Source of the DNA: Mycobacterium sp. Z3061
GTDB taxonomy: Bacteria > Actinomycetota > Actinomycetes > Mycobacteriales > Mycobacteriaceae
Length of the DNA: 64,000 nucleotides
Assembly (NCBI RefSeq): GCF_031583025.1
Contig: NZ_CP134062.1
Location: 1,302,001-1,366,000, forward strand
Direction: 5' to 3'
This document shows positions 1 through 12,791 of this stretch, in pieces. The stretch's first letter is position 1. Each line of letters starts with the position of its first letter. Below the pieces are notes generated by a model. The model was not told where the DNA came from and made no database searches. It saw only the letters and a list, made by a program, of their open reading frames with translations. Position numbers and translations under genes: made by a program.

Positions 1-787
1 CGACCACGTTGTTGCGCTCTCCTTCGTAGAACAGGGTCGACAGATTGATGTCGCAACCCAGGTTCGCCCAGCGCTGGTTGAACTGCTGGGCGCGCTGGCT
101 CACCGGTACACCCGAGTCGGGATGGTATTCGGTGGCGATCCTGCTGCCGGGTCCGCTGAGCGCGGTGATGTTGTCGAAGAGCAGGTCCTGCGCGTCGGGC
201 GGAAGGTACATCAGCAGGCCCTCGGCGCTCCAAGCGGTCGCCTGAGAGGGGTCGAATCCACTGCGGCGCAGCGCTTCCGGCCAGTCGTCGCGAAGGTCGA
301 TGCTGACCGCCTTGCGGTGTGCGGACGGAGTCGCGCCCAGCGCCGCCATCGCTGAGTTCTTGAACTCGATGACCTGGGGCTGGTCGACCTCGTACACCAC
401 GGTGCCGCGCGGCCAGGACAACCGGTAACCCCGGGCGTCGAGTCCGGCTGCCAGGATCACGGCCTGCCGTACCCCCTCGCGGGCCGCGCCGAGGAAGAAG
501 TCGTCGAAGAAGCGGGTGCGCACCGCAATCGAGTCCGTCTCGAATTGCAGGTCACGTCCGTCGGCCGCGTCGGGCAGCGCCTGCTCTAGCGGCAGGTCGC
601 CGTTGACCAGGCGGGTGAAGAAATCCAGCCCGACGGCCCGCACCAACGGTGCCGCGAACGGGTCGTCGATGATCGGGTTGTCCTGCGCGGAGGCCACCGC
701 CCGCGCGGCGGCGACCATGGTTGCGGTAGCCCCGACGCTCGAGGCCAGGTCCCAGCTGTCTCCGGCGGACCGCTCAGTGCTTGCCAT
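1..787 (-). CDS. SAM-dependent methyltransferase, 3' end outside the window
   Basis: Partial gene: the ATG at 785-787 opens a frame that stays open to the window edge, giving about 262 residues. The N-terminus ([19 protein letters not shown]), the RTRFFDDFF stretch, the AdoMet-site segment [14 protein letters not shown] and the acidic [11 protein letters not shown] strand match the mycobacterial family of putative class I methyltransferases (TIGR00027, Rv0725c/Rv0726c type). It is a close paralogue of the gene just upstream, with only 2 bases between that gene's stop and this ATG, so the two are probably cotranscribed. Substrate is unknown. The family call is firm; the function is only generic. 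Confidence 0.85.
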
Positions 788-789
788 GG

Positions 790-1734
790 TTACCGCCGCT
801 CCGCACTCAGGTAGACCACCTCGCCGAACGGCGCATCGTCACCGGAGGCCGGCTCCAGCCCGTGCTGAGCGAACAACTCAGAGTTGCGCCTGCTGGTGGT
901 CTGCCAGCCGTGAGCGGCCAGGTAGGTCCCCGCGTCGGTGCGATCGTCGAAATACACCAGCGCGGCCATGTCGAAGTCCAGACCGTGGCGGCTCCACCGC
1001 TCGTTCTGCCGCTTCATCCGGGTGCGCAGTTCCTCTTGGTTGATCTCGTTGATGTCCAGCAGGCCCTCGGTTGCGAACCGGCTCCCCGGGACACTGAGCG
1101 CGCCGATCTGATCCAGCAGCCGGTCCTGGGCGTCGGCCGGCAGGTAGCCCAGCAAGCCTTCGGCGATCCAGGCGGTGCGTTGCGTGGGGTCGAAGCCGGC
1201 CTCGCGCAGGGCGGCGGGCCAGTCCTCACGCAGGTCGACGGCCACGGTGCGCCGGTCCGCGGTCGGCTGAGCGCCCAAACCGGACAGCGTCGCGGTCTTG
1301 AACTCGATCACCTGAGGCTGGTCCACTTCGAACACGGTGGTGCCCGACGGCCAGGGCAACCGGTAGGCGCGGGAGTCCAGGCCCGCGGCCAGGATGACGG
1401 CCTGCCGGATGCCGGCCTCGGTCGCGGCGCCGAAGAAGTCGTCGAAGAAGCGGGTCCGGATGGCCATCGCGTTGGCGAAGTGCACCGTGCCGGTCGCTGT
1501 CTCCTCGTCCAATTCGGCCAGGTCCAGCTCGCCGCCGGCCAGCCGGGAGAAGAAGTCGACGCCAACCGCGCGGACCAGCGGCTCGGCGAAGGAATCGGTG
1601 GCCACCGCGCCCGCTCCATGGGTGTCGCGTGCCGCCACGGCACGCGCCGCCGCGACCATCGTGGCCGTCAGGCCCACGCTGGACGCCAGGTCCCAGGTGT
1701 CGCCCTCATACCGTGCGCTGCTTATTTGGGTCAT
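790..1734 (-). CDS. SAM-dependent methyltransferase (TIGR00027 family)
   Basis: A 314-residue protein, the usual length for the Rv0725c/Rv0726c-type putative methyltransferases. Visible signatures are [20 protein letters not shown] near the N-terminus, RTRFFDDFF around residue 94, the glycine-rich AdoMet motif [25 protein letters not shown], and AEGLLGYLP. It is the first gene of a tandem pair; its TAA stop is followed 2 bases later by the ATG of the paralogue. The ATG start at 1732-1734 gives the conserved N-terminal length. In M. tuberculosis related genes also lie near secY, so the neighbourhood looks conserved. Biological substrate unknown. Confidence 0.88.
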
Positions 1735-2032
1735 CTAGCTGCTCCCGAAAACGTGCGATCTGATACTTAGCAAATATAACGAGCTTCTCGGACTGTACGC
1801 CGGAAAGTTGACCGTCTGCTGTCAGCGGAGGCCACCCTGGACGGACCAGTGCGCACCAGCTGTTAGTCTCGTACACGGTTTGACGCGCTTGGATCTTGGC
1901 TGGCCGTATGTCCTGGCCTGCCGGTGTTGGGCGCGTGACGCGAGATGACCTCGGGAACTATTAGACATTGGAACCAGCCGGCCAGTCCCGGTTGGCATGC
2001 CGCCACCAGAGTTCGGCTGCGCAGGAGGAAGA
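1735..2032. other. Intergenic region between divergent methyltransferase genes and secY
   Basis: About 300 bases with no convincing gene. It must carry the promoters for the leftward methyltransferase pair and the rightward secY-adk-mapA genes. On the plus strand a TTGACG hexamer at 1880-1885 could be a -35 element, but no well-spaced TANNNT -10 follows, so no promoter is claimed. AGGAGG at 2023-2028 is the ribosome-binding site that fixes the GTG start of secY. Confidence 0.5.
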
Positions 2033-3358
2033 GTGCTTTCGGCTTTCATCTCATCGCTGCGGACAGCCGACCTGAGACGGAAGATCCTCTTCACGCTGAG
2101 CATCGTCGTCCTGTACCGCGTCGGCGCCGCGCTGCCCTCACCCGGCGTCAACTTCCCCAACGTGCAGCAGTGCATCAAGGAAGCCAGCGGCGGCCAGGCC
2201 GGTCAGATCTATTCCCTGATCAATCTGTTCTCCGGCGGCGCGTTGCTGAAGCTCACGGTGTTCGCGGTGGGGGTGATGCCCTACATCACCGCGAGCATCA
2301 TCGTGCAGCTGCTCACCGTGGTCATCCCGCGGTTCGAAGAGCTCAGGAAGGAGGGCCAGGCCGGTCAGGCCAAGATGACGCAGTACACGCGTTACCTGGC
2401 GATCGCGCTGGCCGTCCTGCAGGCCACCAGCATCGTGGCGCTGGCTGCCAACGGCGGTCTGCTCCAGGGCTGCTCGCTGGACATTCTGGCCAACCAGACC
2501 ATCTTCTCCGAGATCGTCATCGTGATGGTGATGACGGCCGGCGCCGCCCTGGTGATGTGGATGGGCGAACTGATCACCGAGCGCGGCATCGGCAACGGCA
2601 TGTCGTTGTTGATCTTCGTCGGCATCGCCGCCCGCATTCCCGCCGAGGGCAATCAGATCCTGCAGAGCCGGGGCGGGATGATCTTCGCGGCCGTATGTGC
2701 GGCCGCCCTGGTCATCATCGTCGGCGTCGTGTTCGTCGAGCAGGGCCAGCGCCGGATCCCCGTCCAGTACGCCAAGCGCATGGTGGGCCGGCGGATGTAC
2801 GGCGGAACGTCGACATACCTGCCGCTGAAGGTCAACCAGGCCGGCGTTATCCCGGTCATTTTCGCGTCCTCGCTGATCTACATTCCAAATCTGATCACTC
2901 AGCTGGTTCGTAGCGGCAGCGGCGGTGGTGGCCACAGCTGGTGGGACAAATTCGTCGGAAGCTACCTTTCCGACCCCAGTAGCCCGGTGTATATCAGCAT
3001 CTATTTCGGGTTGATCATCTTCTTCACGTACTTCTACGTGTCGATCACGTTCAATCCGGATGAGCGTGCCGACGAAATGAAGAAATTCGGCGGCTTTATT
3101 CCCGGCATTCGGCCCGGGCGCCCGACCGCTGATTATCTGCGCTTTGTGCTGAGCCGGATCACTCTCCCCGGCTCGATCTACCTCGGTGTCATCTCCGTGC
3201 TGCCCAACCTGTTCCTCCAGATCGGCAACAGCGGCGGGATACAGAATCTACCCTTCGGGGGTACCGCGGTTCTGATCATGATCGGCGTCGGGTTGGATAC
3301 GGTCAAACAGATCGAGAGTCAGCTCATGCAGCGCAACTATGAAGGGTTCCTCAAGTGA
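2033..3358 (+). CDS. secY: Preprotein translocase subunit SecY
   Basis: Central pore subunit of the SecYEG translocon, which moves unfolded proteins across or into the cytoplasmic membrane. The frame encodes 441 residues from the GTG at 2033, the same length as I recall for M. tuberculosis SecY. This start is chosen because AGGAGG lies 4 bases upstream and the product begins [20 protein letters not shown]; an upstream ATG at 1997 lacks such support. About ten hydrophobic segments are visible, with the conserved loops [15 protein letters not shown] and YAKRMVGRR and the C-terminal MQRNYEGFL. Its stop overlaps the adk start (GTGA), showing translational coupling. Confidence 0.98.
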
Positions 3359-3900
3359 GAGTGGTATTGCTGGGACCGCCTGGGGCGGGCAAGGGGACGC
3401 AAGCCGAGAAGCTGGCCGAAAAGCTGGGGATTCCGCACATCTCCACCGGCGAACTGTTCCGCAGCAATATCCAGGAGGGCACCAAGCTGGGCGTGGAGGC
3501 CAAGCGCTACCTGGACGCCGGTGACCTGGTGCCGTCCTCGCTGACCAACGAACTCGTCGACGACCGGCTCAATGACCCGGACGCCGCCAACGGCTTCATC
3601 CTCGACGGCTATCCGCGGTCGGTGGAACAGGCCAAGGCGCTGCACGAGATGCTGGAACGGCGCGGCACCGACATCGATGCCGTCGTTGAGTTCCGGGTCT
3701 CCGAGGACGAGCTGCTGACCCGGCTGACGGGCCGCGGTCGTGCCGACGACACCGAAGAGGTCATCCGAAACCGGATGAAGGTCTACCGCGAAGAGACCGC
3801 GCCGCTGTTGGACTACTACAGCGACGAGCTGAAGACCGTCGACGCGGTCGGTACCTTGGATGAGGTGTTCGCTCGCGCGTTGCAGGTTCTGGGCCAGTAA
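3355..3900 (+). CDS. adk: Adenylate kinase
   Basis: Catalyses ATP + AMP = 2 ADP in the cytosol. The 181-residue product matches the short adenylate kinase of mycobacteria. The P-loop GPPGAGKGT spans residues 7-15, the AMP-site segment HISTGELFR follows, and [10 protein letters not shown] is the conserved mid-domain motif. The LID region ([16 protein letters not shown]) is short and lacks the larger insert of long-type enzymes. Translation starts at a GTG that overlaps the secY stop by 4 bases. mapA begins 2 bases after the adk stop. Confidence 0.98.
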
Positions 3901-3902
3901 TC

Positions 3903-4700
3903 ATGGGCGCCCTGGCACGGCTGCGGGGCCGCAAAGTGGTACCTCAGCGCACTGCCGGTGAGCTCGATGCGATGGCGGCGGCCGGCGCGGTCGTTGCCAC
4001 CGCCCTGAAAGCGGTTCAATCTGCGGCGGTGGCCGGCGTGTCCACCCTGAGTCTCGACGAGATCGCCGAGTCGGTGATTCGCGAGGCGGGCGCCATCCCG
4101 TCCTTCCTCGGCTACCACGGCTATCCGGCGTCGATCTGCTCGTCGGTCAACGACCGCGTCGTACACGGAATCCCTTCCGCCGCCGAGGTTCTGGTGCCCG
4201 GCGATCTGGTGTCCATCGACTGCGGCGCGGTGCTGGACGGCTGGCACGGCGACGCGGCCGTCACGTTCGGGGTGGGCAACCTGATCCCCGCCGACGCGGC
4301 GCTGTCGCAAGCGACCAGAGACTCTCTGGAAGCCGGAATCGCGGCGATGGTCGTCGGGAACCGGCTCACCGACGTCGCGCATGCCATTGAGACCGGTACG
4401 CACGCCGCCGCGGCCCGCTACGACCGCGCCTTCGGGATCGTCGAGGGTTACGGCGGCCACGGCATCGGCCGGCAGATGCATATGGACCCCTTCCTGCCCA
4501 ACGAAGGCTCGCCGGGGCGGGGTCCCACCCTCGCGGTGGGGTCGGTGCTGGCCATCGAGCCGATGCTGACGCTGGGAACCGGAAAGACCGTCGTCCTCGA
4601 CGATCAGTGGACCGTGACCACCGTTGACGGCTCGCGCGCCGCCCACTGGGAACACACCGTGGCCGTCACTGAAGACGGTCCGCGCATCCTCACGCTTTGA
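3903..4700 (+). CDS. mapA: Methionine aminopeptidase type I
   Basis: Removes the initiator methionine from nascent proteins using a dinuclear metal site. The 265-residue product is the short class Ia form without an N-terminal zinc-finger extension. Metal ligands are visible in [20 protein letters not shown] (two Asp), [12 protein letters not shown] (His), AIEPML (Glu) and [11 protein letters not shown] (Glu). Gene order secY-adk-map is the ancestral bacterial one. In most bacteria infA comes next; here infA is 12 kb away. The TGA stop also forms part of the likely -35 element of the sigL promoter. Confidence 0.96.
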
Positions 4701-4724
4701 ACCAAACTCCCCGATGACTCGTAT
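4698..4724 (+). promoter_or_regulatory. Candidate SigL-dependent autoregulatory promoter
   Basis: TGAACC at 4698-4703 and CGTAT at 4720-4724 are separated by 16 bases and lie directly upstream of sigL. From memory, the M. tuberculosis SigL consensus is TGAACC, a 16-17 base spacer, then CGT. The -35 box overlaps the mapA stop codon. A ribosome-binding site (GGGAGGTGA, 4732-4740) precedes the GTG start. The motif is seen directly; control by SigL is inferred from the known autoregulation of sigL. Confidence 0.65.
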
Positions 4725-4744
4725 GAGTAACGGGAGGTGATCAG

Positions 4745-5278
4745 GTGGCTCGTGTGGCCAACACCGGGGCTGCTGAAGCCGCTCTGATGAAAGCGCTCTA
4801 TGACGAGCATGCCGCCGTCCTGTGGCGGTATGCGTTGCGGTTGACCGGCGACGCCAGCCAGTCTGAGGACGTCGTCCAGGAGACGTTGCTACGGGCGTGG
4901 CAGCATCCGGAGGTCATCGGCGACACCGAGCGTTCGGCGCGGGCCTGGCTGTTCACCGTCGCCCGCAACATGATCATCGACGATCGGCGCAGCGCCCGGT
5001 ACCGCAACGTCGTCGGGTCGACCGACGAGGACGGCGCGCCGGAACAGTCCACGCCCGACGAGGTCAACGCGGCGCTGGATCGGCTGCTGATCGCCGAGGC
5101 GATGGCCCAGCTGTCCGTCGAACACCGGGCGGTGATCGAGCGGTCGTACTACCGTGGCTGGACCACTGCTCAAATTGCCAACGATCTGAATATCGCAGAG
5201 GGAACAGTGAAGTCGCGCCTGCACTACGCGGTGCGCGCGTTGCGGCTCACTCTGCAGGAACTGGGAGTCACGCGATGA
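4745..5278 (+). CDS. sigL: ECF RNA polymerase sigma factor SigL
   Basis: Extracytoplasmic-function sigma factor of 177 residues, the length I recall for M. tuberculosis SigL. Region 2 spans about residues 15-85 (YDEHAAVLWRYALRLTGD, EDVVQETLLRAWQHP, RAWLFTVARNMIIDDRR). Region 4 spans about 115-170 (LSVEHRAVIERSYYRGW, TAQIANDLNIAEGTVKSRLH). The GTG at 4745 follows a strong ribosome-binding site. The stop overlaps the ATG of the anti-sigma gene, the usual coupling for ECF/anti-sigma pairs. In M. tuberculosis SigL has been linked to cell-envelope and polyketide genes. Confidence 0.95.
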   Translation: MARVANTGAAEAALMKALYDEHAAVLWRYALRLTGDASQSEDVVQETLLRAWQHPEVIGDTERSARAWLFTVARNMIIDDRRSARYRNVVGSTDEDGAPEQSTPDEVNAALDRLLIAEAMAQLSVEHRAVIERSYYRGWTTAQIANDLNIAEGTVKSRLHYAVRALRLTLQELGVTR

Positions 5279-5979
5279 CGGGGTCTGTGCGACACGACCA
5301 GCCCGGCGACACGCACCGCTACGCGACGTGGGATGCCGCTTACGTACTGGGGTCGCTGTCGGGTGCCGAGCGGCGAGAATTCGAAACGCACCTGGCCGAT
5401 TGCGCGTCCTGCCGGGAAGCCGTCGCCGAACTCAGCGGCATTCCGGCGCTGCTTTCTCAGCTGAGCCGCGACGACGTTGCCGCCATCAACGAGGCCGGAC
5501 CGGCGCCTTCGACGCCGGAGATGTTGCCGTCACTGCTGGAGACGGTGCGCTGGCGGCGGCGCCGCACCCGGCTGACCTGGCTGGCTTCGGCCGCCGCGGC
5601 AGTGGTGCTGGGCATCGGCGTGCTGGTTGGGGTCAACGGCTACTTCGCGACGAACTCGCAACCAATCACCTCGGCACAGCCGATGGAGCAGGTCGGCACC
5701 AAGCTGCTGACGTCGACGATCTCGGTGTCCAGCGAGCACTGGGGCACCTTCATCAACCTGAAGTGCTTCTGCCTGGCGCCGCCGGACGCCCCGCACGACA
5801 CCCTGGCCATGGTGGTGGTGGGCCGGGACGGCAGCCACACACGGCTGGCGACCTGGGTGGCCGAACCCGGTCACAGCGCAACCCCGGCCGGCAGTATCTC
5901 GACGCCGATGGAGCAGATCGCCGCCGTGCAGGTGGTTGCCGCCGACAGTGGTCAGGTTCTGCTCGAGCGTTCGATGTAA
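5275..5979 (+). CDS. rslA: Zinc-containing anti-sigma factor RslA
   Basis: Membrane-anchored anti-sigma factor expected to hold SigL inactive and release it under oxidative conditions. The 234-residue protein has an N-terminal zinc anti-sigma domain with H39-x3-C43-x2-C46 (HLADCASC), a basic stretch RWRRRRTR, one transmembrane helix at about 101-123 and an extracytoplasmic C-terminal domain. That outer domain contains a C-x-C pair (LKCFCLAPPDA), possibly redox-active. The ATG at 5275 overlaps the sigL stop, which fixes the start. Confidence 0.92.
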   Translation: MTGSVRHDQPGDTHRYATWDAAYVLGSLSGAERREFETHLADCASCREAVAELSGIPALLSQLSRDDVAAINEAGPAPSTPEMLPSLLETVRWRRRRTRLTWLASAAAAVVLGIGVLVGVNGYFATNSQPITSAQPMEQVGTKLLTSTISVSSEHWGTFINLKCFCLAPPDAPHDTLAMVVVGRDGSHTRLATWVAEPGHSATPAGSISTPMEQIAAVQVVAADSGQVLLERSM

Positions 5980-6005
5980 CTCGCCCGGTGCGGTAAGAAA
6001 GGGAC

Positions 6006-6506
6006 GTGGCTGACTCTGCGAAGCGCGATCCCATCGCCGTGGCGAGAACCAACTGGGAACTCGCCGGCTGGGGCGATGTCTCGCAGGGCATGGTCGCGGT
6101 GACGTCGGTGATGCGCGCGCACCAGATCCTCTTGGCCCGCGTCGAGACCGCGCTGCGGCCTTACGATCTGAGTTTTTCCCGGTATGAGTTGCTGCGATTG
6201 CTGGCATTCAGCCGCACGGGTGGCCTGCCGATCACCAAAGCGTCGGACCGACTGCAGGTACACGTCACCAGCGTCACGCATGCTATCCGGCGGTTGGAAT
6301 CCGACGGGCTGGTAAGGCGGGTACCTCATCCCACCGACGGGCGGACCACGCTGGTGCAGATCACCGAACTGGGACGCTCCACGGTCGAGGACGCCACCGT
6401 GACCCTCAACGAGCAGGTGTTCGCCGATATCGGGATCGATGCCGCCCAGTCGGAGGCGTTGGTGTCGTCCATAGAGACGTTGCGGCGCAACGCCGGTGAC
6501 TTCTAG
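6006..6506 (+). CDS. MarR-family transcriptional regulator (Rv0737-like)
   Basis: A 166-residue winged helix-turn-helix protein. The MarR core is clear: LSFSRYELLRLLAFS, the recognition region ITKASDRLQVHVTSVTHAIRRLESDGLVRRV, then the wing PTDGRTTLVQITELG. The GTG start at 6006 has an AAAGGGA ribosome-binding site. The same gene follows sigL-rslA in M. tuberculosis (Rv0737). Its TAG stop shares a CTAG tetramer with the stop of convergent mmsB. It could control the neighbouring mmsA-fadE9-mmsB operon, but that is only proximity. Confidence 0.88.
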   Translation: MADSAKRDPIAVARTNWELAGWGDVSQGMVAVTSVMRAHQILLARVETALRPYDLSFSRYELLRLLAFSRTGGLPITKASDRLQVHVTSVTHAIRRLESDGLVRRVPHPTDGRTTLVQITELGRSTVEDATVTLNEQVFADIGIDAAQSEALVSSIETLRRNAGDF

Positions 6507-7387
6507 CCGTTGCGCAGCATCTCGATGACGGCGCTGAAGTCCTTATCGGCGTGCTCTGCCGCGAATCTGGCGTAGATCTCCGCTGCGTGAGTGCCCAGGG
6601 GAGCGGCCGAACCGGTCGAGGCGACCGCATCCATCGCCAGGCCCAGGTCCTTGTTCATCAGCGCGGTCGCGAAACCCGGCTTGAAGTCGTTGTTGGCCGG
6701 TGATGTCGGAACAGGCCCCGGCACAGGACAATTGGTGTGCACCGCCCAGCAGTTACCGGTTGCCCCGGTGATCACGTCGAACAGCGACTGCGCAGACAGG
6801 CCGAGCTTCTCGGCCAGCACGAACGCCTCGCCGATCGCGATCTGCTGAACCGCCAGCACCATGTTGTTGCAGACCTTGGCGGCCTGACCGGCGCCAGCAG
6901 CGCCACAGTGAATCACCTTGCCCGCCATGGGTTCCAGCACCGGGCGCGCGCGTTCCAGGGCGTCGGACTCGCCGCCCACCATGAAGGCCAACGTCCCGGC
7001 CGTCGCTCCCTTGACGCCGCCGGACACAGGTGCGTCGAGCTGCTGCATACCCTGCGAGCCCGCCAGCTCGTGCGCGTCGCGGGCATCGCTGACCGAGATG
7101 GTGGAGCTGTCGATGAACAACGCACCGGGGCGCGCGGCGGGCAGCACCTCGGCGTAACAGCGTTTGACCACCTCGCCGCTGGGCAACATGGTGATCACGG
7201 CGTCCGCGTCGGCCACGGCTTCGGCGGCGGTCCCGAACAACGTCACACCCTTGTCGGCTGCGGCGCTCGCGGCTGCGGGTACCGGATCGTAGCCGCGCAC
7301 CAGATGGCCTGCGCCAAGGAGATTGGCTGCCATGGGCGCGCCCATGTTGCCGAGTCCCAGGAACGCGATCGCGAGACGTGTTGTCAT
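6503..7387 (-). CDS. mmsB: 3-hydroxyisobutyrate dehydrogenase
   Basis: NAD-dependent oxidation of 3-hydroxyisobutyrate to methylmalonate semialdehyde in valine breakdown. The 294-residue protein begins with a Rossmann fold (FLGLGNMGAPMAANLL, GLGNMG at 11-16), followed by the substrate-loop sequence DAPVSGG and the segment GQAAKVCNNM carrying the expected catalytic lysine. It is the last gene of the operon mmsA-fadE9-mmsB, 9 bases after fadE9. The order matches M. tuberculosis Rv0753c-Rv0752c-Rv0751c. It ends tail-to-tail with the MarR gene, sharing a 4-base overlap. Confidence 0.95.
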   Translation of the reverse strand: MTTRLAIAFLGLGNMGAPMAANLLGAGHLVRGYDPVPAAASAAADKGVTLFGTAAEAVADADAVITMLPSGEVVKRCYAEVLPAARPGALFIDSSTISVSDARDAHELAGSQGMQQLDAPVSGGVKGATAGTLAFMVGGESDALERARPVLEPMAGKVIHCGAAGAGQAAKVCNNMVLAVQQIAIGEAFVLAEKLGLSAQSLFDVITGATGNCWAVHTNCPVPGPVPTSPANNDFKPGFATALMNKDLGLAMDAVASTGSAAPLGTHAAEIYARFAAEHADKDFSAVIEMLRNG

Positions 7388-7396
7388 GGTGCCCTT

Positions 7397-8557
7397 CTAG
7401 GCGCTGGCCCGAATGCGCGCGGCCTCGGCGCGGCCGACGACCACCCGCATGATTTCGTTGGTTCCTTCCAGGATCCGATGCACCCGCAGGTCGCGGACGA
7501 TCTTTTCCAAACCATACTCGCGCAGGTACCCGTAGCCGCCGTGCAACTGCAGCGCCTTGTCGGCCACCTCGAAGCAGGTGTCGGTGACGTATCGCTTGGC
7601 CATCGCGCACAGCTCGACCTTGTCGGCGGCGTTGGCGTCCAGCGCGGATGCAGCCCGCCACAACATCATTCGCGACGTCTCCAGTCCGGTGGCCATGTCG
7701 GCCAGGGTGAACCGGATGGTGGGCTCGTCGAGCAGCGCGGAACCGAACGCCTGCCGGTCACGGACGTAGGCGCCCGCCTTGTCGAACGCGGACTGCGCTC
7801 CGCCCAACGAGCAGGCGGCGATGTTGAGCCGTCCGCCGTTCAGGCCGTTCATCGCGATCCCGAAACCGGTGCCCTCACCGTCGGCTCCGCCGAGCATGGC
7901 GTCGGCTGGGACCCGCACGCCGTCCAGAATCACTTGGGCGGTGGGTTGGGCATGCCAACCCATCTTCTCCTCGAGCGCACCGAAACTCAGTCCCGCAGTG
8001 TCTTTTTCGACGACAAAGGCGGAGATGCCGCGCGGTCCCTCATTGCCCGTTCTGGCCATCACCACGTAGACGTCGGACGCCCCGGCACCGGAGATGAACT
8101 GCTTCACGCCGTCCAGCACATAATCCGAACCCTGCTTGACCGCACGCGTGCTCAACGCGCTCGCGTCGGAGCCTGCGCCGGGCTCGGTCAGGCAGTAGCT
8201 GGCGATGACGTCCATCGACGCCAGCCGCGGCACCCACGCCTTGCGCTGCTCGTCGGTGCCGAAGCTGTCGATCATCCAGGCGCACATGTTGTGGATGGAC
8301 AGGAACGCCGCGGTCACCGGGTCGGCGATGGCCAGCTGTTCGAAGATGCGCACGCCGTCCAGGCGGCGCAGTCCGCTGCCGCCGACGTCGTCGCGGCAGT
8401 AGATCGCCGCCATCCCGAGTTCGGCGGCCTCGCGCAGCACGTCGGTGGGGAAGTGCTTGGTGGCATCCCATTCCAGGGCGTAGGGGGCCATCCGCTTGTC
8501 GGCGAAGGCTGCCGCCGTCTCGGTGATCACCCGTTCTTCATCGTTGAGGGTAAACAT
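7397..8557 (-). CDS. fadE9: Acyl-CoA dehydrogenase, probably isobutyryl-CoA dehydrogenase
   Basis: FAD-dependent acyl-CoA dehydrogenase of 386 residues, a standard length. Conserved blocks are CLTEPGAGSDASAL (FAD and substrate binding), the QLHGGYGYLREYGLEKIVRDLR region, and ILEGTNEIMR, which holds the likely catalytic glutamate. Position between mmsA and mmsB makes isobutyryl-CoA to methacrylyl-CoA in valine catabolism the best-supported reaction. The ATG start at 8557 gives the usual N-terminus (FTLNDEERVITE). Spacing to both neighbours is 9 bases. Substrate specificity is inferred from context, not from residues. Confidence 0.93.
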   Translation of the reverse strand: MFTLNDEERVITETAAAFADKRMAPYALEWDATKHFPTDVLREAAELGMAAIYCRDDVGGSGLRRLDGVRIFEQLAIADPVTAAFLSIHNMCAWMIDSFGTDEQRKAWVPRLASMDVIASYCLTEPGAGSDASALSTRAVKQGSDYVLDGVKQFISGAGASDVYVVMARTGNEGPRGISAFVVEKDTAGLSFGALEEKMGWHAQPTAQVILDGVRVPADAMLGGADGEGTGFGIAMNGLNGGRLNIAACSLGGAQSAFDKAGAYVRDRQAFGSALLDEPTIRFTLADMATGLETSRMMLWRAASALDANAADKVELCAMAKRYVTDTCFEVADKALQLHGGYGYLREYGLEKIVRDLRVHRILEGTNEIMRVVVGRAEAARIRASA

Positions 8558-8566
8558 TTCGGCCCG

Positions 8567-10087
8567 TTAATCCATTGTGGGGATGACGAATTCGGCACCG
8601 TCCTTGATGCCGGACGGCCAGCGGGAGGTGACGGTCTTGACCTTGGTGTAGAACTGGATCGACGCCGGACCGTGCTGGTTGAGGTCGCCGAAGCCGGACC
8701 GCTTCCAGCCACCGAAGGTGTGGTAGGCCACCGGAACCGGAATCGGGACGTTGACGCCGACCATGCCCACCTGCACCCGCGAGACGAAGTCGCGCGCGGT
8801 GTCGCCGTCGCGGGTGAAGACCGCCACGCCGTTGCCGTACTCGTGCGCGGACGGCAACCGGAGCGCCTCTTCGTAGTCGTGGGCACGCACGATGCACAGC
8901 ACCGGCCCGAAGATCTCGTCGGTGTAGATCGACATCTCCGGGGTGACGTGGTCGAAGAGGGTGGGCCCGATGAAGTAGCCGCCCTCGAGATTGGCGTCCC
9001 CGAAAGTCAGGTCGTCGCTGGCGCGTTCGCGTCCGTCGATGACCAGTTCGGCGCCGGCCTCCACGCCCTGGCCGATGTAGTCGCGCACCCGGGTCAGCGC
9101 GGCCTCGGTGACCAGCGGGCCGTAGTCGGCCTTGGGGTCCAGGCTGTGTCCGACGCGCAGGCCGTTGATGCGCTCAATCAGCCTGGCGCGCAGCCGGTCT
9201 GCGGTCTGTTCGCCGACCGGGACGGCGACGCTGATCGCCATGCAGCGCTCACCGGCGCTGCCGTAGCCGGCGCCGATCAGCGCGTCGACGGCCTGGTCGA
9301 GGTCGGCGTCGGGCATCACGATCATGTGATTCTTGGCGCCACCGAAGCATTGCGAACGCTTTCCGGTGGCCGCTGAGTGGCTGTAGATGTACTGCGCGAT
9401 GTCGGAACTGCCGACGAAACCCACCGCCTGGATGTCCGGGTGCTGCAGGATCGCGTCGACGGCTTCCTTGTCGCCGTGCACCACCTGGAAGACCCCGGGC
9501 GGGAGGCCCGCTTCCAGAAACAGCTCGGCCAGTCGGACCGGAACCGAGGGGTCGCGTTCACTTGGCTTGAGCACGAACGCATTTCCACACGCCAGAGCCG
9601 GACCGGCCTTCCACAGCGGAATCATCGCCGGGAAGTTGAACGGGGTGATGCCGGCGACCACGCCCAGCGGCTGGCGCAGCGAGTAGACGTCGATGCCGGG
9701 ACCGGCGCCCTCGGTGTAGTCACCCTTGAGCAGGTGCGGGATTCCGATGCAGAACTCGATCACCTCGATGCCGCGCTGAATGTCGCCTCTGGCGTCCGGC
9801 AGCGTCTTGCCGTGTTCGAGGGAGAGCAGCTCGGCCAGCTCGTCGATGTTCTTGTTGACCAATTCGACGAATTTCATCAGGACCCGGGCACGGCGCTGCG
9901 GATTCCATGCCGCCCAGCCTTGTTGGGCCTCGACGGCAGAGGCCACCGCGGCGTCGATGTCGGCCTGGTTGGCCATCGGGACCGTGGACTGGACTTCTCC
10001 GGTACTCGGATTGAGCACGTCGGCGGTGCGGGTGGAGGAGCCGGCGGTGCGCTGCCCGTCGATGAAGTGGGGAATCTGCGAGGTCAT
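8567..10087 (-). CDS. mmsA: Methylmalonate-semialdehyde dehydrogenase (CoA-acylating)
   Basis: Aldehyde dehydrogenase superfamily enzyme that converts methylmalonate semialdehyde, CoA and NAD to propionyl-CoA, CO2 and NADH. The 506-residue protein shows ITPFNFPAMIPLWKAGPALACGN, the family motif GAKNHMIVMPDAD, and the catalytic cysteine in AGERCMA. It is first in the operon, so the promoter probably lies upstream of 10087, where a 20-bp palindrome sits at 10116-10135. With fadE9 and mmsB it covers three steps of valine degradation, feeding propionyl-CoA into methyl-branched lipid synthesis. Confidence 0.95.
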   Translation of the reverse strand: MTSQIPHFIDGQRTAGSSTRTADVLNPSTGEVQSTVPMANQADIDAAVASAVEAQQGWAAWNPQRRARVLMKFVELVNKNIDELAELLSLEHGKTLPDARGDIQRGIEVIEFCIGIPHLLKGDYTEGAGPGIDVYSLRQPLGVVAGITPFNFPAMIPLWKAGPALACGNAFVLKPSERDPSVPVRLAELFLEAGLPPGVFQVVHGDKEAVDAILQHPDIQAVGFVGSSDIAQYIYSHSAATGKRSQCFGGAKNHMIVMPDADLDQAVDALIGAGYGSAGERCMAISVAVPVGEQTADRLRARLIERINGLRVGHSLDPKADYGPLVTEAALTRVRDYIGQGVEAGAELVIDGRERASDDLTFGDANLEGGYFIGPTLFDHVTPEMSIYTDEIFGPVLCIVRAHDYEEALRLPSAHEYGNGVAVFTRDGDTARDFVSRVQVGMVGVNVPIPVPVAYHTFGGWKRSGFGDLNQHGPASIQFYTKVKTVTSRWPSGIKDGAEFVIPTMD

Positions 10088-10159: not shown

Positions 10160-10768
10160 GTGGCTTGCCGCATCGCTTGCCGGTGTAACCCGATCCCGTA
10201 TTCACTATTCGTGAAGGGATCGGCGCGACACAGGAGTCAGGAAACGGTTAGCGATCAACCACGGCCTTTGCGTGCGGTGCCCGATGACGGTTACGCCAAC
10301 TGGGAGGCCGTCTATCAGGACAACGCCACCTGGGTATATCGCACGCTGTTCGCACGGGTAGGCAATCGGGCGGATGCCGAAGACCTGACCACGGAAGTCT
10401 TCCTGGCAGCCTTGCGGCCGCTGCGGTTGACCGCCAGTGTGGCCGAGGTGCGGGCCTATCTGCGGGCCACCGCGCGAACCGTGCTGGCTGCGCACTGGCG
10501 CGAGACCCTGGGCCGCGAAATCACCTCGATCGACGACATCGAGCAGCCACCTCAAAGTGAGGAAGCGGTCAACAACGCACCGCAGCGCGTCGCCCGCGTA
10601 CTGGACCAACTGCCGGAGAATTATCGTCGAATTCTGCAGCTGAGATTTCTGGGAGGTAATTCAATCAAGGAGTCCGCGGCCCTGCTCGGGGTGAGCGTCG
10701 CCAATGCCAAGGTGCTCCAACATCGTGCGCTGCGGCTCGCCGCACAGATGAACGAGGGGAGCGAGTGA
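10160..10768 (+). CDS. ECF-type RNA polymerase sigma factor
   Basis: Small sigma-70 family factor. Region 2 is visible as YQDNATWVYRTLFARVGNRADAEDLTTEVFLAALR with AYLRATARTVLAAHWR; region 4 as LPENYRRILQLRFLGGNSIKESAALLGVSVANAKVLQHRAL. The start is uncertain. The GTG at 10160 gives 202 residues, but its AAGGAG is too close; GTG at 10211 or 10277 are alternatives, and conserved sequence only begins near 10290. The stop overlaps the start of the Rieske gene, suggesting the partner acts on this sigma factor. It is not one of the sigma factors whose name I can assign. Confidence 0.85.
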   Translation: MACRIACRCNPIPYSLFVKGSARHRSQETVSDQPRPLRAVPDDGYANWEAVYQDNATWVYRTLFARVGNRADAEDLTTEVFLAALRPLRLTASVAEVRAYLRATARTVLAAHWRETLGREITSIDDIEQPPQSEEAVNNAPQRVARVLDQLPENYRRILQLRFLGGNSIKESAALLGVSVANAKVLQHRALRLAAQMNEGSE

Positions 10769-11469
10769 TGAACGTCCGTGCTCTGCGCCGATACCTCGAC
10801 GACTTGCTCGGCGGCCGCCGTCCGCGGCCGTTCCAGCCCGACGACTTCGAGGCCGCACAGATCCGCACCGCGATAGAGCTGCGGGCCGCGCAACCCGGGG
10901 GAGACGCACCGAGGCCGGAATTTCTTGCGGAGCTGCACCGGCGCCTCGCCGAGCAGCAATCCGAATCGGTTGCGCCTCAACCGTTTAAGGCTGGGGCCAC
11001 GCGCAGGCAGGTGGTGGTCGGGACGTCGGCCGCCGCTGCCGCCGCGGTGGCCGCAGTCTCCGTCGACCGGCTCGTCATCGGCGACCGCGGTCCGGCAACG
11101 CCGCCGGGAGGTGGGGAACTCACGCCCAACGCCGGGCGCTGGGTGCCGGTCGCGGCCAGCTCCGAGGTGCCCGATCGGATGATGCGGCCCTTCGACCTCG
11201 GCGTGGTCAACGGATTCGTTCGACGGGTGGACGGCAAGCCCGAGGCGGTATCGGGTGTGTGCACCCACCAGGGCTGCCGGCTGTGGTTCGATGCGCCCGA
11301 CGACCGGCTGCGCTGCCCGTGCCACTCGGCGTCGTTTTCGCCGGCCGGCGAGGTGTTGACACACCAAAACCCGGTTGCACCAAGCCCTTTGCCGAAATTC
11401 CTGGTTCGCGAGGTGGACGGGGAGATCGAGGTGTTCGCCCCGGCGCCCCCGGACAAACCGTCCGTGTAA
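10768..11469 (+). CDS. Rieske [2Fe-2S] protein with cytoplasmic N-terminal domain, possible redox-sensing anti-sigma factor
   Basis: A 233-residue protein in three parts. Residues 1-75 form a charged, helical, probably cytoplasmic domain with no zinc anti-sigma motif. Residues 78-100 (TRRQVVVGTSAAAA) look like a twin-arginine signal anchor. Residues 120-233 form a Rieske domain with CTHQGC at 165-170 and CPCH at 183-186, so all four cluster ligands are present. Translation is coupled to the ECF sigma gene (TGATG). The layout, a cytosolic arm plus an exported redox cluster beside an ECF factor, is what an anti-sigma redox sensor would need, but this role is inference. A GTG at 10765 is an alternative start. 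Confidence 0.82.
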   Translation: MNVRALRRYLDDLLGGRRPRPFQPDDFEAAQIRTAIELRAAQPGGDAPRPEFLAELHRRLAEQQSESVAPQPFKAGATRRQVVVGTSAAAAAAVAAVSVDRLVIGDRGPATPPGGGELTPNAGRWVPVAASSEVPDRMMRPFDLGVVNGFVRRVDGKPEAVSGVCTHQGCRLWFDAPDDRLRCPCHSASFSPAGEVLTHQNPVAPSPLPKFLVREVDGEIEVFAPAPPDKPSV

Positions 11470-11497
11470 GGCGTCTGCGGGCGGGTTGAATTGGTGG

Positions 11498-11518
11498 TAG
11501 TATCGAACATGTGTTCGA
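11498..11518 (+). promoter_or_regulatory. LexA (SOS) box overlapping a leaderless promoter and start codon
   Basis: TCGAAC at 11503-11508 and GTTCGA at 11513-11518, four bases apart, match the mycobacterial SOS box exactly. The wider palindrome has 8-bp arms ATCGAACA and TGTTCGAT. A -10 box TAGTAT at 11498-11503 places the expected transcription start at about 11510-11511, the first base of the GTG start. LexA binding would cover both promoter and start site. From memory, LexA control of 13E12-family genes has been reported in M. tuberculosis. Confidence 0.85.
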
Positions 11519-12791
11519 TTTGATGCGGTTGTCGCAGGTGGATTCGGGTGCCACCGAAGCCGAACTGGTCGCGCGCATCACCGAGTTGGAGCAGGTGAAA
11601 TCCGCAGCGGCTGCGGGGCAGGCGCGGGCGGCGGCCGCCCTGGATGCCGCCCGGCGTGCCGCGGAATCGGCCGCGGGAGTGCCGGCGGGCAAGCGGGGCC
11701 GCGGGGTGGCCAGCGAGGTCGCCCTGGCCCGCCGCGACTCCCCGGCCCGCGGGGGCCGGCATCTGGGGTTCGCCACAGCGCTGGTGCACGAGATGCCCCA
11801 CACCCTGGCCGCGTTGGAACACGGCGCGCTCAGCGAATGGCGCGCCACCCTGATCGTGCGGGAATCGGCCTGCCTGGACGTCGAGGACCGCCGCACGCTG
11901 GACCGCGAACTGTGCGCCGCGATGGACACGCTGGTGGGCCTGGGTGACAAGCGGATCACCGCCGCCGTCCAGAAGATCGCCTACCGCCTGAACGCGCAAG
12001 CCGTCGTCGACCGGGCCGCCAAAGCCCCCGCCGACCGCACCGTCACCATCCGCCCGGCTCCGGACACCATGACCTGGGTCAGCATCCTGCTGCCCGTCGC
12101 CCAGGGCGTCGGGGTCTACGCCGCGCTACGCCGCGCCGCCGACAGCACCGTCGACGGACGCTCCCGCGGACAAGTCATGGCCGACACCGCCTTCGAACGC
12201 ATCACCGCCAACCCCGCCACCACACCGGCCTCCCTCGCCCTGAATGTGGTCATCTCCGACCGGGCCCTGCTCGGCCACACCGACGACGCCGCGACCCTCG
12301 AGGGCTACGGGCCCATCCCCGCCGAGGTGGCCCGCCGATGGCTCAACGCCGCGCTGGCCGAGAAGAACTCCCTGGCCACCCTGCGCCGCCTCTACGCCAG
12401 CCCCACCACCGGCGCCCTGGTCGCCATGGAATCACGCGCCCGCACCTTCCCCCGCGGGCTGGCCGAGTTCATCAACCTGCGCGACCAAACCTGCCGCACC
12501 CCCTACTGCGACGCCCCCATCCGCCACCGCGACCACATCACCCCCGCCCAACACGGCGGGCCCACCACCGCCACCAACGGCGAAGGCCTGTGCGAACGCT
12601 GCAACTACGTCAAAGAATCACCCGGCTGGCGCGTCACCGCGCACGACGAAAACGGTGTGCACACCACCGAATACATCACCCCCACCGACGCCCGTTACCG
12701 ATCCGTCGCACCACCGATCTACGCCATCACCCATATCAGCGAGATGGAAGACGCCCTGGGCATCACCGTCATCGACTTCCATGCCGCCTAG
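11511..12791 (+). CDS. 13E12 repeat family protein, DUF222 with C-terminal HNH endonuclease domain
   Basis: A 426-residue protein. The N-terminal two thirds are DUF222 (helical, ELVARITELEQVKSAAAAGQ, HLGFATALVHEMPHTLAALE). The C-terminus is an HNH nuclease module: CRTPYCDAPIRHRDHITPA, then NGEGLCERCNYVKE, with zinc-binding cysteines and the catalytic histidines. This family is multicopy and mobile-like in mycobacteria (Rv3466/Rv3467 type). The GTG start sits inside an SOS box, implying DNA-damage induction and leaderless translation. The gene ends tail-to-tail with a lipoprotein gene through a shared CTAG. Cleavage target unknown. Confidence 0.92.
   Translation: MFDLMRLSQVDSGATEAELVARITELEQVKSAAAAGQARAAAALDAARRAAESAAGVPAGKRGRGVASEVALARRDSPARGGRHLGFATALVHEMPHTLAALEHGALSEWRATLIVRESACLDVEDRRTLDRELCAAMDTLVGLGDKRITAAVQKIAYRLNAQAVVDRAAKAPADRTVTIRPAPDTMTWVSILLPVAQGVGVYAALRRAADSTVDGRSRGQVMADTAFERITANPATTPASLALNVVISDRALLGHTDDAATLEGYGPIPAEVARRWLNAALAEKNSLATLRRLYASPTTGALVAMESRARTFPRGLAEFINLRDQTCRTPYCDAPIRHRDHITPAQHGGPTTATNGEGLCERCNYVKESPGWRVTAHDENGVHTTEYITPTDARYRSVAPPIYAITHISEMEDALGITVIDFHAA

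Follow-up and report, generated by a model that had tools for sequence, protein, structure and literature searches.

We found that a 64,000-nt stretch of the Mycobacterium sp. Z3061 genome (6.79 Mb in one contig), hereafter the window, probably encodes an ECF sigma factor together with a dedicated membrane anti-sigma factor, the latter combining an RsbN-like cytosolic arm with a Rieske domain that would serve as sensor outside the membrane. The first-pass annotation had described a sigma gene coupled to a membrane Rieske protein, and that observation was confirmed for both domains, the gene overlap, the arm, the twin arginine, and the cluster boxes. Its further proposal of a redox-sensing anti-sigma system was upheld in part: the anti-sigma half gained strong, if indirect, support from gene co-occurrence, a promoter-like motif, a swap of the outer domain, and the profile of the arm. 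The features of the locus, all on the forward strand, are the following:

10184..10201, + strand: promoter-like motif TGTAACC-N8-TAT with the putative -35 TGTAAC, ahead of the sigma gene; some N16 further on, the -10 is weak in this species
10268..10768, + strand: ECF sigma gene (Pfam), of uncertain start (TTG 10268 or GTG 10277)
10768..11469, + strand: gene of the membrane Rieske protein (233 aa, counted from the conserved ATG), a predicted anti-sigma factor
10768..10995, + strand: N-terminal arm, residues 1-76, predicted cytosolic sigma-binding domain (conservation into other families; profile match to RsbN-position domains)
11002..11064, + strand: twin arginine at residues 79-80, then a hydrophobic anchor spanning about 81-99, from RR invariance in 14/14 sequences and hydropathy
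11140..11370, + strand: Rieske [2Fe-2S] domain (PF00355 match to residues 126-202, counted from the GTG), with an expected location outside the membrane
11260..11325, + strand: cluster boxes CTHQGC ... CPCH, from the alignment of 14 sequences
11470..11510, + strand: site of the second motif and operon in relatives, absent here, with a DUF222/HNH gene next

The sigma ORF matched Pfam Sigma70_r4_2 (E 7e-11) and Sigma70_r2 (E 1e-7), both over the cut-off, and no further domains were found in the scan, consistently with an ECF sigma factor as defined here by regions 2 and 4 only and a length of about 170-200 aa. The best PDB sequence match of its profile was 6dxo_A (E 4e-15), which we take to be the BldN complex with RsbN from Streptomyces. 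Among NCBIfam families the best was the BldN family, TIGR02952, whose 72.4 bits lie below the curated cut-off of 206 and leave the window's sigma factor outside that family. The reading frame was first read as 10160-10768, ending inside the start of the Rieske gene. A start at 10160 is nonetheless unlikely, because the conserved promoter motif at 10184-10201 would then fall within the coding sequence. The relatives have, 3' of the motif, a GGAGG-like site and then a start codon in 72 of 81 loci (loose pattern), and the downstream candidates in the window are TTG 10268 and GTG 10277, between which the start is uncertain. This sigma factor is 91% identical to that of locus L079 and the Rieske protein only 69%, a disparity that points to recombination or to rapid change in the Rieske gene.

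The downstream ORF was recognized as a Rieske protein in the Pfam scan (PF00355, E 4e-14). The sigma stop codon (10766-10768) shares one base with the conserved Rieske ATG at 10768, and a GTG is present at 10765. The coupling originally noted extends to all 83 loci with both genes (64 distinct Rieske sequences), which overlap by 4 bases in 80 cases and by 1 base in the three from the window's species if the in-frame start closest to the sigma stop is used for the Rieske gene. Translation from the ATG gives an N-terminal arm of 76 residues, in agreement with the ~75-residue N-terminus initially reported. This arm is predicted to be cytosolic and, by eye from its sequence, expected to form three helices (RRYLDDLL, PDDFEAAQIRTAIELRAA, and PRPEFLAELHRRLAEQ). 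The twin arginine at 79-80 is invariant in the 14 aligned sequences (the window's and 13 others) and is followed by a hydrophobic stretch from residue 81, the most hydrophobic 19-residue segments of the protein beginning at 81-82, so that a twin-arginine-like anchor is indeed evident and export as a Tat substrate is predicted by sequence. In the outer domain, C165, H167, C170, C183, C185, and H186 (ATG numbering) are likewise invariant in 14/14, and all four expected ligands are therefore in place; presumably, C165, H167, C183, and H186 hold the cluster and C170 and C185 form the disulfide pair, as in Rieske proteins generally. CxHxxC and CxCH boxes with disulfide cysteines are those of the high-potential type. 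The protein has four cysteines in all (165, 170, 183, and 185), every one inside the Rieske boxes. The arm has none, and a zinc anti-sigma (ZAS) arm, defined by HxxxCxxC in the cytosolic domain, was discarded on this ground. One in-frame stop was seen within the Rieske match in each of four genomes (G033, G050, G066, and G147), and a partial second copy, consisting of the sigma 3' end and the Rieske 5' end, lies downstream of the intact pair in L022 (2350-2897).

The protein shares the box residues, including the disulfide pair, and a Tat-type anchor with the bc1/b6f Rieske subunits (QcrA and PetC), from which it differs by its own N-terminal arm and by an ECF sigma neighbor in 58 of 60 genus genomes. 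Scores against the NCBIfam Rieske equivalogs were far below the cut-offs, and no bc or oxidase genes were noticed near the pair in the seven neighborhoods whose frames were read; a respiratory bc Rieske was accordingly rejected.

A co-occurrence survey, as suggested in the first-pass annotation, was carried out on 148 genomes of the genus. The sigma gene, counted at 56% identity or more (matches at 37% or less and a partial second copy in G134 were left out), is present in 58 of them (about 40%), in every case with the Rieske gene alongside on the same strand, the sigma match ending within about 30 bases of the Rieske match. Conversely, 58 of the 60 genomes with the Rieske gene carry sigma. 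The Rieske search had matched 64 genomes at E 1e-10 or better, four of which (G027, G056, G099, and G133) were dropped as weak matches to the Rieske domain only (38-41% identity, E about 1e-11). Among the named records found, the nearest is M. gordonae CTRI 14-8773 (L032), 99% identical over the Rieske protein. Both Rieske genomes devoid of sigma have damaged loci. In G091 the Rieske gene is truncated, with the arm and about half of the Rieske domain kept, and in G057 the arm and sigma are lost, the outer domain (81% identical) and a cupredoxin operon being retained; the outer domain can thus outlast the sigma gene. The G057 locus adjoins sequence read by eye as PGRS-like. A Rieske gene conserved without sigma and sitting with respiratory genes had been named beforehand as evidence against the anti-sigma reading; such a case was not clearly found in the genus, since 58 of 60 genomes keep sigma, but the outer domain of G057 does persist without it.

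The motif upstream of sigma is a further hallmark of the system. In 81 of 83 loci, TGTAAC is present in the 200 bases that precede the conserved part of sigma. When the 55 distinct upstream sequences are aligned on it, position 6 is C in 54, position 7 is C in 53, and positions 15-16 are TA in all 55. For counting we used the 53 long-flank loci (at least 4.5 kb each), in which [TC]GTAAC-N9-TA[TC] lies upstream of sigma in 52 and at most 150 bases from the Rieske stop in 51. Elsewhere in these loci the relaxed motif has two sites in 1,253,356 strand-bases, one of them fronting a displaced cupredoxin operon 2.6 kb further off (L063). Genome-wide, the exact motif was found in 56 of 58 sigma-plus genomes (131 sites, including the locus sites from which the motif was derived) versus 22 of 90 sigma-minus genomes (29 sites). 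The reversed pattern gave 49 sites in the former and 75 in the latter, an equal frequency per genome that argues against chance as the source of the motif. An inverted repeat visible in some upstream sequences was dismissed, as it is absent from others by eye.

About N16 after TGTAAC there is a loose -10, with consensus cGggtga before sigma and GGcatG before the cupredoxin gene. The TAT holds a fixed place in the spacer and is as constant as the -35, both in the copy before sigma and in the one 3' of the Rieske gene. Such a constant spacer TAT combined with a weak -10 is not textbook for ECF promoters. BldN recognizes CGTAAC-N16-CGTTGA according to a passage of PMC2375139, and the two motifs have the -35 in common (YGTAAC here, CGTAAC for BldN).

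The second copy of the motif, after the Rieske gene, fronts an operon encoding a cupredoxin, a Tat-type metallophosphoesterase, and a small membrane protein. Downstream matches to these genes were obtained in 50, 51, and 49 of the 53 long loci, respectively, and the motif is less than 300 bases before the cupredoxin match in 48. A scan of L043, where the three genes overlap by four bases, identified the cupredoxin (PF00127, E 1e-10) and the metallophosphoesterase (PF00149, E 4e-12; by eye, its start resembles an RR signal) and assigned the membrane protein to no Pfam family. None of the three genes was found downstream in L032 (2.1 kb of flank) and L074, the latter having the motif after the Rieske gene all the same. 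Across the genus, the metallophosphoesterase is present in 52 of the 60 Rieske genomes (partial in G005) and otherwise only as a fragment in G089. It can be displaced, lying divergently upstream of sigma (G021 and G087), at a distance of 5.6 kb (G143), or on a separate contig, where it has a motif of its own (G067 and L098).

Other genes also stand behind the motif. It precedes a DoxX-type gene followed by sigma in L103 (PF07681) and L104 (by eye), an operon arrangement unlike the usual one, in genomes in which the metallophosphoesterase was not found. In five genomes (L098-L102) it precedes a small secreted protein (GYxVQxNG...PLSxCxVTGxxG) that had no Pfam family in the L101 scan. It also lies roughly 50-90 bases before a PPE gene in the sigma-plus loci L087, L088, and L090-L092, the PPE identity coming from PF00823 in the scanned piece of L090; L089 is a sixth PPE-type locus, its frame cut or masked. 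The operon, DoxX, secreted-protein, and PPE genes behind the motif are predicted targets of the sigma factor.

We also searched outside the genus with the arm profile. At the level of the order, with the own genus counted, 26 of 348 genomes from 10 of 80 genera gave a match; at the level of the class, the figures were 28 of 394 genomes and 9 of 137 genera. Sigma adjoins the arm, with 52-62% identity, in 14 of the 15 order-level regions outside the genus; the arm match of L148 looked false. Twelve of these 14 loci have the Rieske domain and nine the cupredoxin, in all nine with the motif before the cupredoxin gene. The motif is just upstream of sigma in 12 of the 14, about 0.5 kb up in L135, and on the other strand only in L141. 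At class level, 16 of 19 loci outside the genus have arm plus sigma (15 with Rieske, one cut by the contig end); weak arm matches in L204-L206 (E about 3e-4) looked false.

Two loci from two genera of one family, L143 and L146, have the same sigma and arm and an anchor, followed by an outer domain without Rieske boxes. The L143 protein reached no Pfam cut-off (best E 0.07), and the L146 outer domain was compared by eye. In both, the motif lies upstream of sigma and after the arm gene. The next gene in L143 encodes a secreted-repeat protein (PF03640) and not a cupredoxin; the fetched stretch of L146 ends after the motif 3' of the arm gene. Three of 24 genomes of this family have the arm, one of the three with Rieske. 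This exchange, seen in two genomes, would be expected of an anti-sigma module whose sensors can be swapped.

Known anti-sigma domains were then considered as relatives of the arm. Passages of PMC7406223 and PMC8103513 describe RsbN as a third class of anti-sigma domain, with helices contacting sigma regions 4 and 2, and the passage of PMC7406223 prints the two names the other way round. As comparison set, we took the N-terminal domains encoded behind BldN-family sigmas (TIGR02952) in 27 of 30 loci, with junctions regarded as approximate, and split them into 13 outside family f33 and 14 in f33 (taken as Streptomyces). The arm matched the 13 non-f33 domains over 53 columns in three segments, with an hhalign score of 28.5 (E 5e-5). 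Controls remained well below this value, namely, 0 of 60 column shuffles reached it (maximum 17.5), the reversed profile scored 15.6, and 21 unrelated windows gave at most 13.1. Against the same set, non-Mycobacterium arms scored 31.2, Mycobacterium arms 21.2, and the two swapped-domain arms 19.4. Against the 14 f33 domains there was no significant match (score 12.5, reached by 3 of 60 shuffles), and the score versus the pooled 27 was only 19.1 over 21 columns (0 of 60 shuffles). These comparisons used trimmed sequences; untrimmed ones gave a score of 6.6. The best hit of the arm profile among solved structures had an E of 0.1.

The pair thus resembles the Streptomyces RsbN-sigma BldN system in the best solved relative (6dxo_A) and best NCBIfam match of its sigma, in the gene immediately 3' of sigma, which encodes a membrane-anchored partner with a short arm (three helices by eye), and in the -35 (CGTAAC there, YGTAAC here). 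It is unlike that system in that its sigma falls below the BldN cut-off, its arm matches the non-f33 set and not the f33 set, its outer domain is Rieske, and its predicted targets are envelope proteins instead of development genes. RsrA, RshA, and RslA are redox-responsive zinc anti-sigma factors. The SigK-RskA pair is redox-sensitive according to a title in a reference list. These systems and the pair have in common that an ECF sigma gene adjoins that of its anti-sigma factor (a predicted one here) and that the signal is presumed to be redox; unlike in them, the arm here contains no Cys and hence no zinc motif, and the redox center would be a [2Fe-2S] cluster outside the membrane. The claim that no zinc anti-sigma gene is nearby holds for the immediate neighbors, but a second ECF sigma gene at 4745-5278 is followed by a zf-HC2 gene at 5275-5979 (PF13490, E 5e-8), about 4.2 kb upstream. 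We take this ECF/zf-HC2 pair (4745-5979) to resemble SigL-RslA.

Ordinary co-transcription offers another explanation of the pair: the Rieske protein would be a sigma-dependent envelope redox protein, sigma would be controlled at the level of transcription or by another anti-sigma factor, and the arm would have some other role. The Rieske gene does lie inside the predicted operon of sigma, so that both would be induced together. Nevertheless, the overlap and adjacency of the two genes are kept in some genomes where the cupredoxin operon sits elsewhere, the arm follows sigma in other families even with Rieske replaced, and its profile is similar to RsbN-position domains, all of which renders this explanation very improbable. 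The anti-sigma role of the Rieske protein is well supported by these comparisons, if indirectly.

Regarding mechanism, we infer that the RsbN-like (putatively class III) cytosolic arm contacts sigma and would hold it at the membrane, with the Rieske [2Fe-2S] domain, placed outside by the Tat-type anchor, receiving the signal. The outer domain would change state, the cluster being oxidized, reduced, damaged, or lost, or the domain bound by a partner, for example the cupredoxin. This signal would pass through the anchor, upon which the arm would release sigma. Freed sigma would then transcribe [TC]GTAAC promoters, that is, its own operon and, in most relatives, the cupredoxin-metallophosphoesterase-membrane protein operon; in the window's species the self-promoter alone is recognizable. 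Cluster state is a plausible signal, given that every ligand and disulfide residue is retained, including those in the window's species. More specifically, the exported cluster could read the redox condition of the envelope, probably exchanging electrons with the sigma-induced cupredoxin, in a closed loop that would link an envelope electron-transfer chain to transcription. We put this forward tentatively, as a possibility falling somewhat short of an even chance.

A differing account retains the anti-sigma arm but treats the Rieske domain as non-sensing, mainly an electron carrier working with the cupredoxin, and leaves the release of sigma to another signal such as regulated proteolysis or failed Tat export of cluster-free protein. 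The Rieske and cupredoxin genes adjoin and have the motif in common, both products look like exported redox proteins, the cluster and disulfide residues are invariant in 14/14, and G057 keeps the outer domain and the cupredoxin operon in the absence of arm and sigma. In contrast, two genomes bear a non-Rieske outer domain, and in L143 the secreted target differs as well, which would fit an outer domain that determines the signal. Moreover, the window's species preserves the cluster residues, yet the cupredoxin operon was not found there. On balance, we consider a non-sensing Rieske domain quite unlikely.

The window's own copy deserves separate treatment. The place of the relatives' cupredoxin operon, directly after the Rieske gene, is taken by the DUF222/HNH gene (11511-12791), presumably 13E12-like; in L032, transposase-like frames were seen by eye at this site. 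Neither metallophosphoesterase nor cupredoxin was found in the window's genome, the cupredoxin result coming from a single-genome search that had no positive control of its own. The exact motif occurs there at two sites in total, and no convincing target besides the pair's own promoter was found with the strict motif. The second site (G000:C1:4404636), which precedes a frame resembling an FAD-dependent oxidoreductase by eye, was rejected as a target, its letters recurring in the sigma-minus genome G120. A third site keeps only TGTAAC and TAT and precedes an aldehyde-dehydrogenase-like frame (by eye).

With its target operon lost, the pair could be a decaying, non-functional remnant in the window's species. 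Consistently, the operon was not found in the searches above, the start of the sigma gene is unclear, and the outer part has changed faster than in relatives: for the part behind the arm, dN is 0.21 between the window and L043 and 0.10 between L079 and L043. The arm is not faster in the same comparisons (0.15 versus 0.17). Against decay, the species keeps sigma, the arm and its motifs, the cluster residues, RR, and the promoter motif intact, and dN/dS between its strains is low (Rieske 0.06 and sigma 0.12, on few changes). We therefore deem a non-functional remnant unlikely, albeit with a chance worth retaining. The window copy may be a regulator that has been orphaned, or a remnant at an early stage.

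Membrane anti-sigma factors are known as a kind; in the literature searched, we found no description of one with a Rieske sensor. Our literature search of titles and abstract starts returned no Rieske plus anti-sigma/ECF system among the matches listed, and no paper on the cupredoxin-metallophosphoesterase pairing; the main ECF classification papers, in which such a system may be listed, lay outside its scope. In the excerpts of PMC3599157, a Rieske gene appears in one table and an anti-sigma gene unrelated to it in another, and the word "Rieske" is absent from the text of PMC8103513. The locus is spread over several actinomycete families and about 40% of the sampled genus genomes (58/148), and its predicted promoter and target genes make the system directly testable. 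To our knowledge, the redox anti-sigma factors described so far rely on zinc-thiol switches in the cytosol or on disulfides of the sigma factor. An anti-sigma factor with an iron-sulfur domain on the outer side of the membrane would, if true, represent a different route to envelope redox sensing. Together, the pairing and its switch sequence suggest a little-known mode of extracellular sensing.
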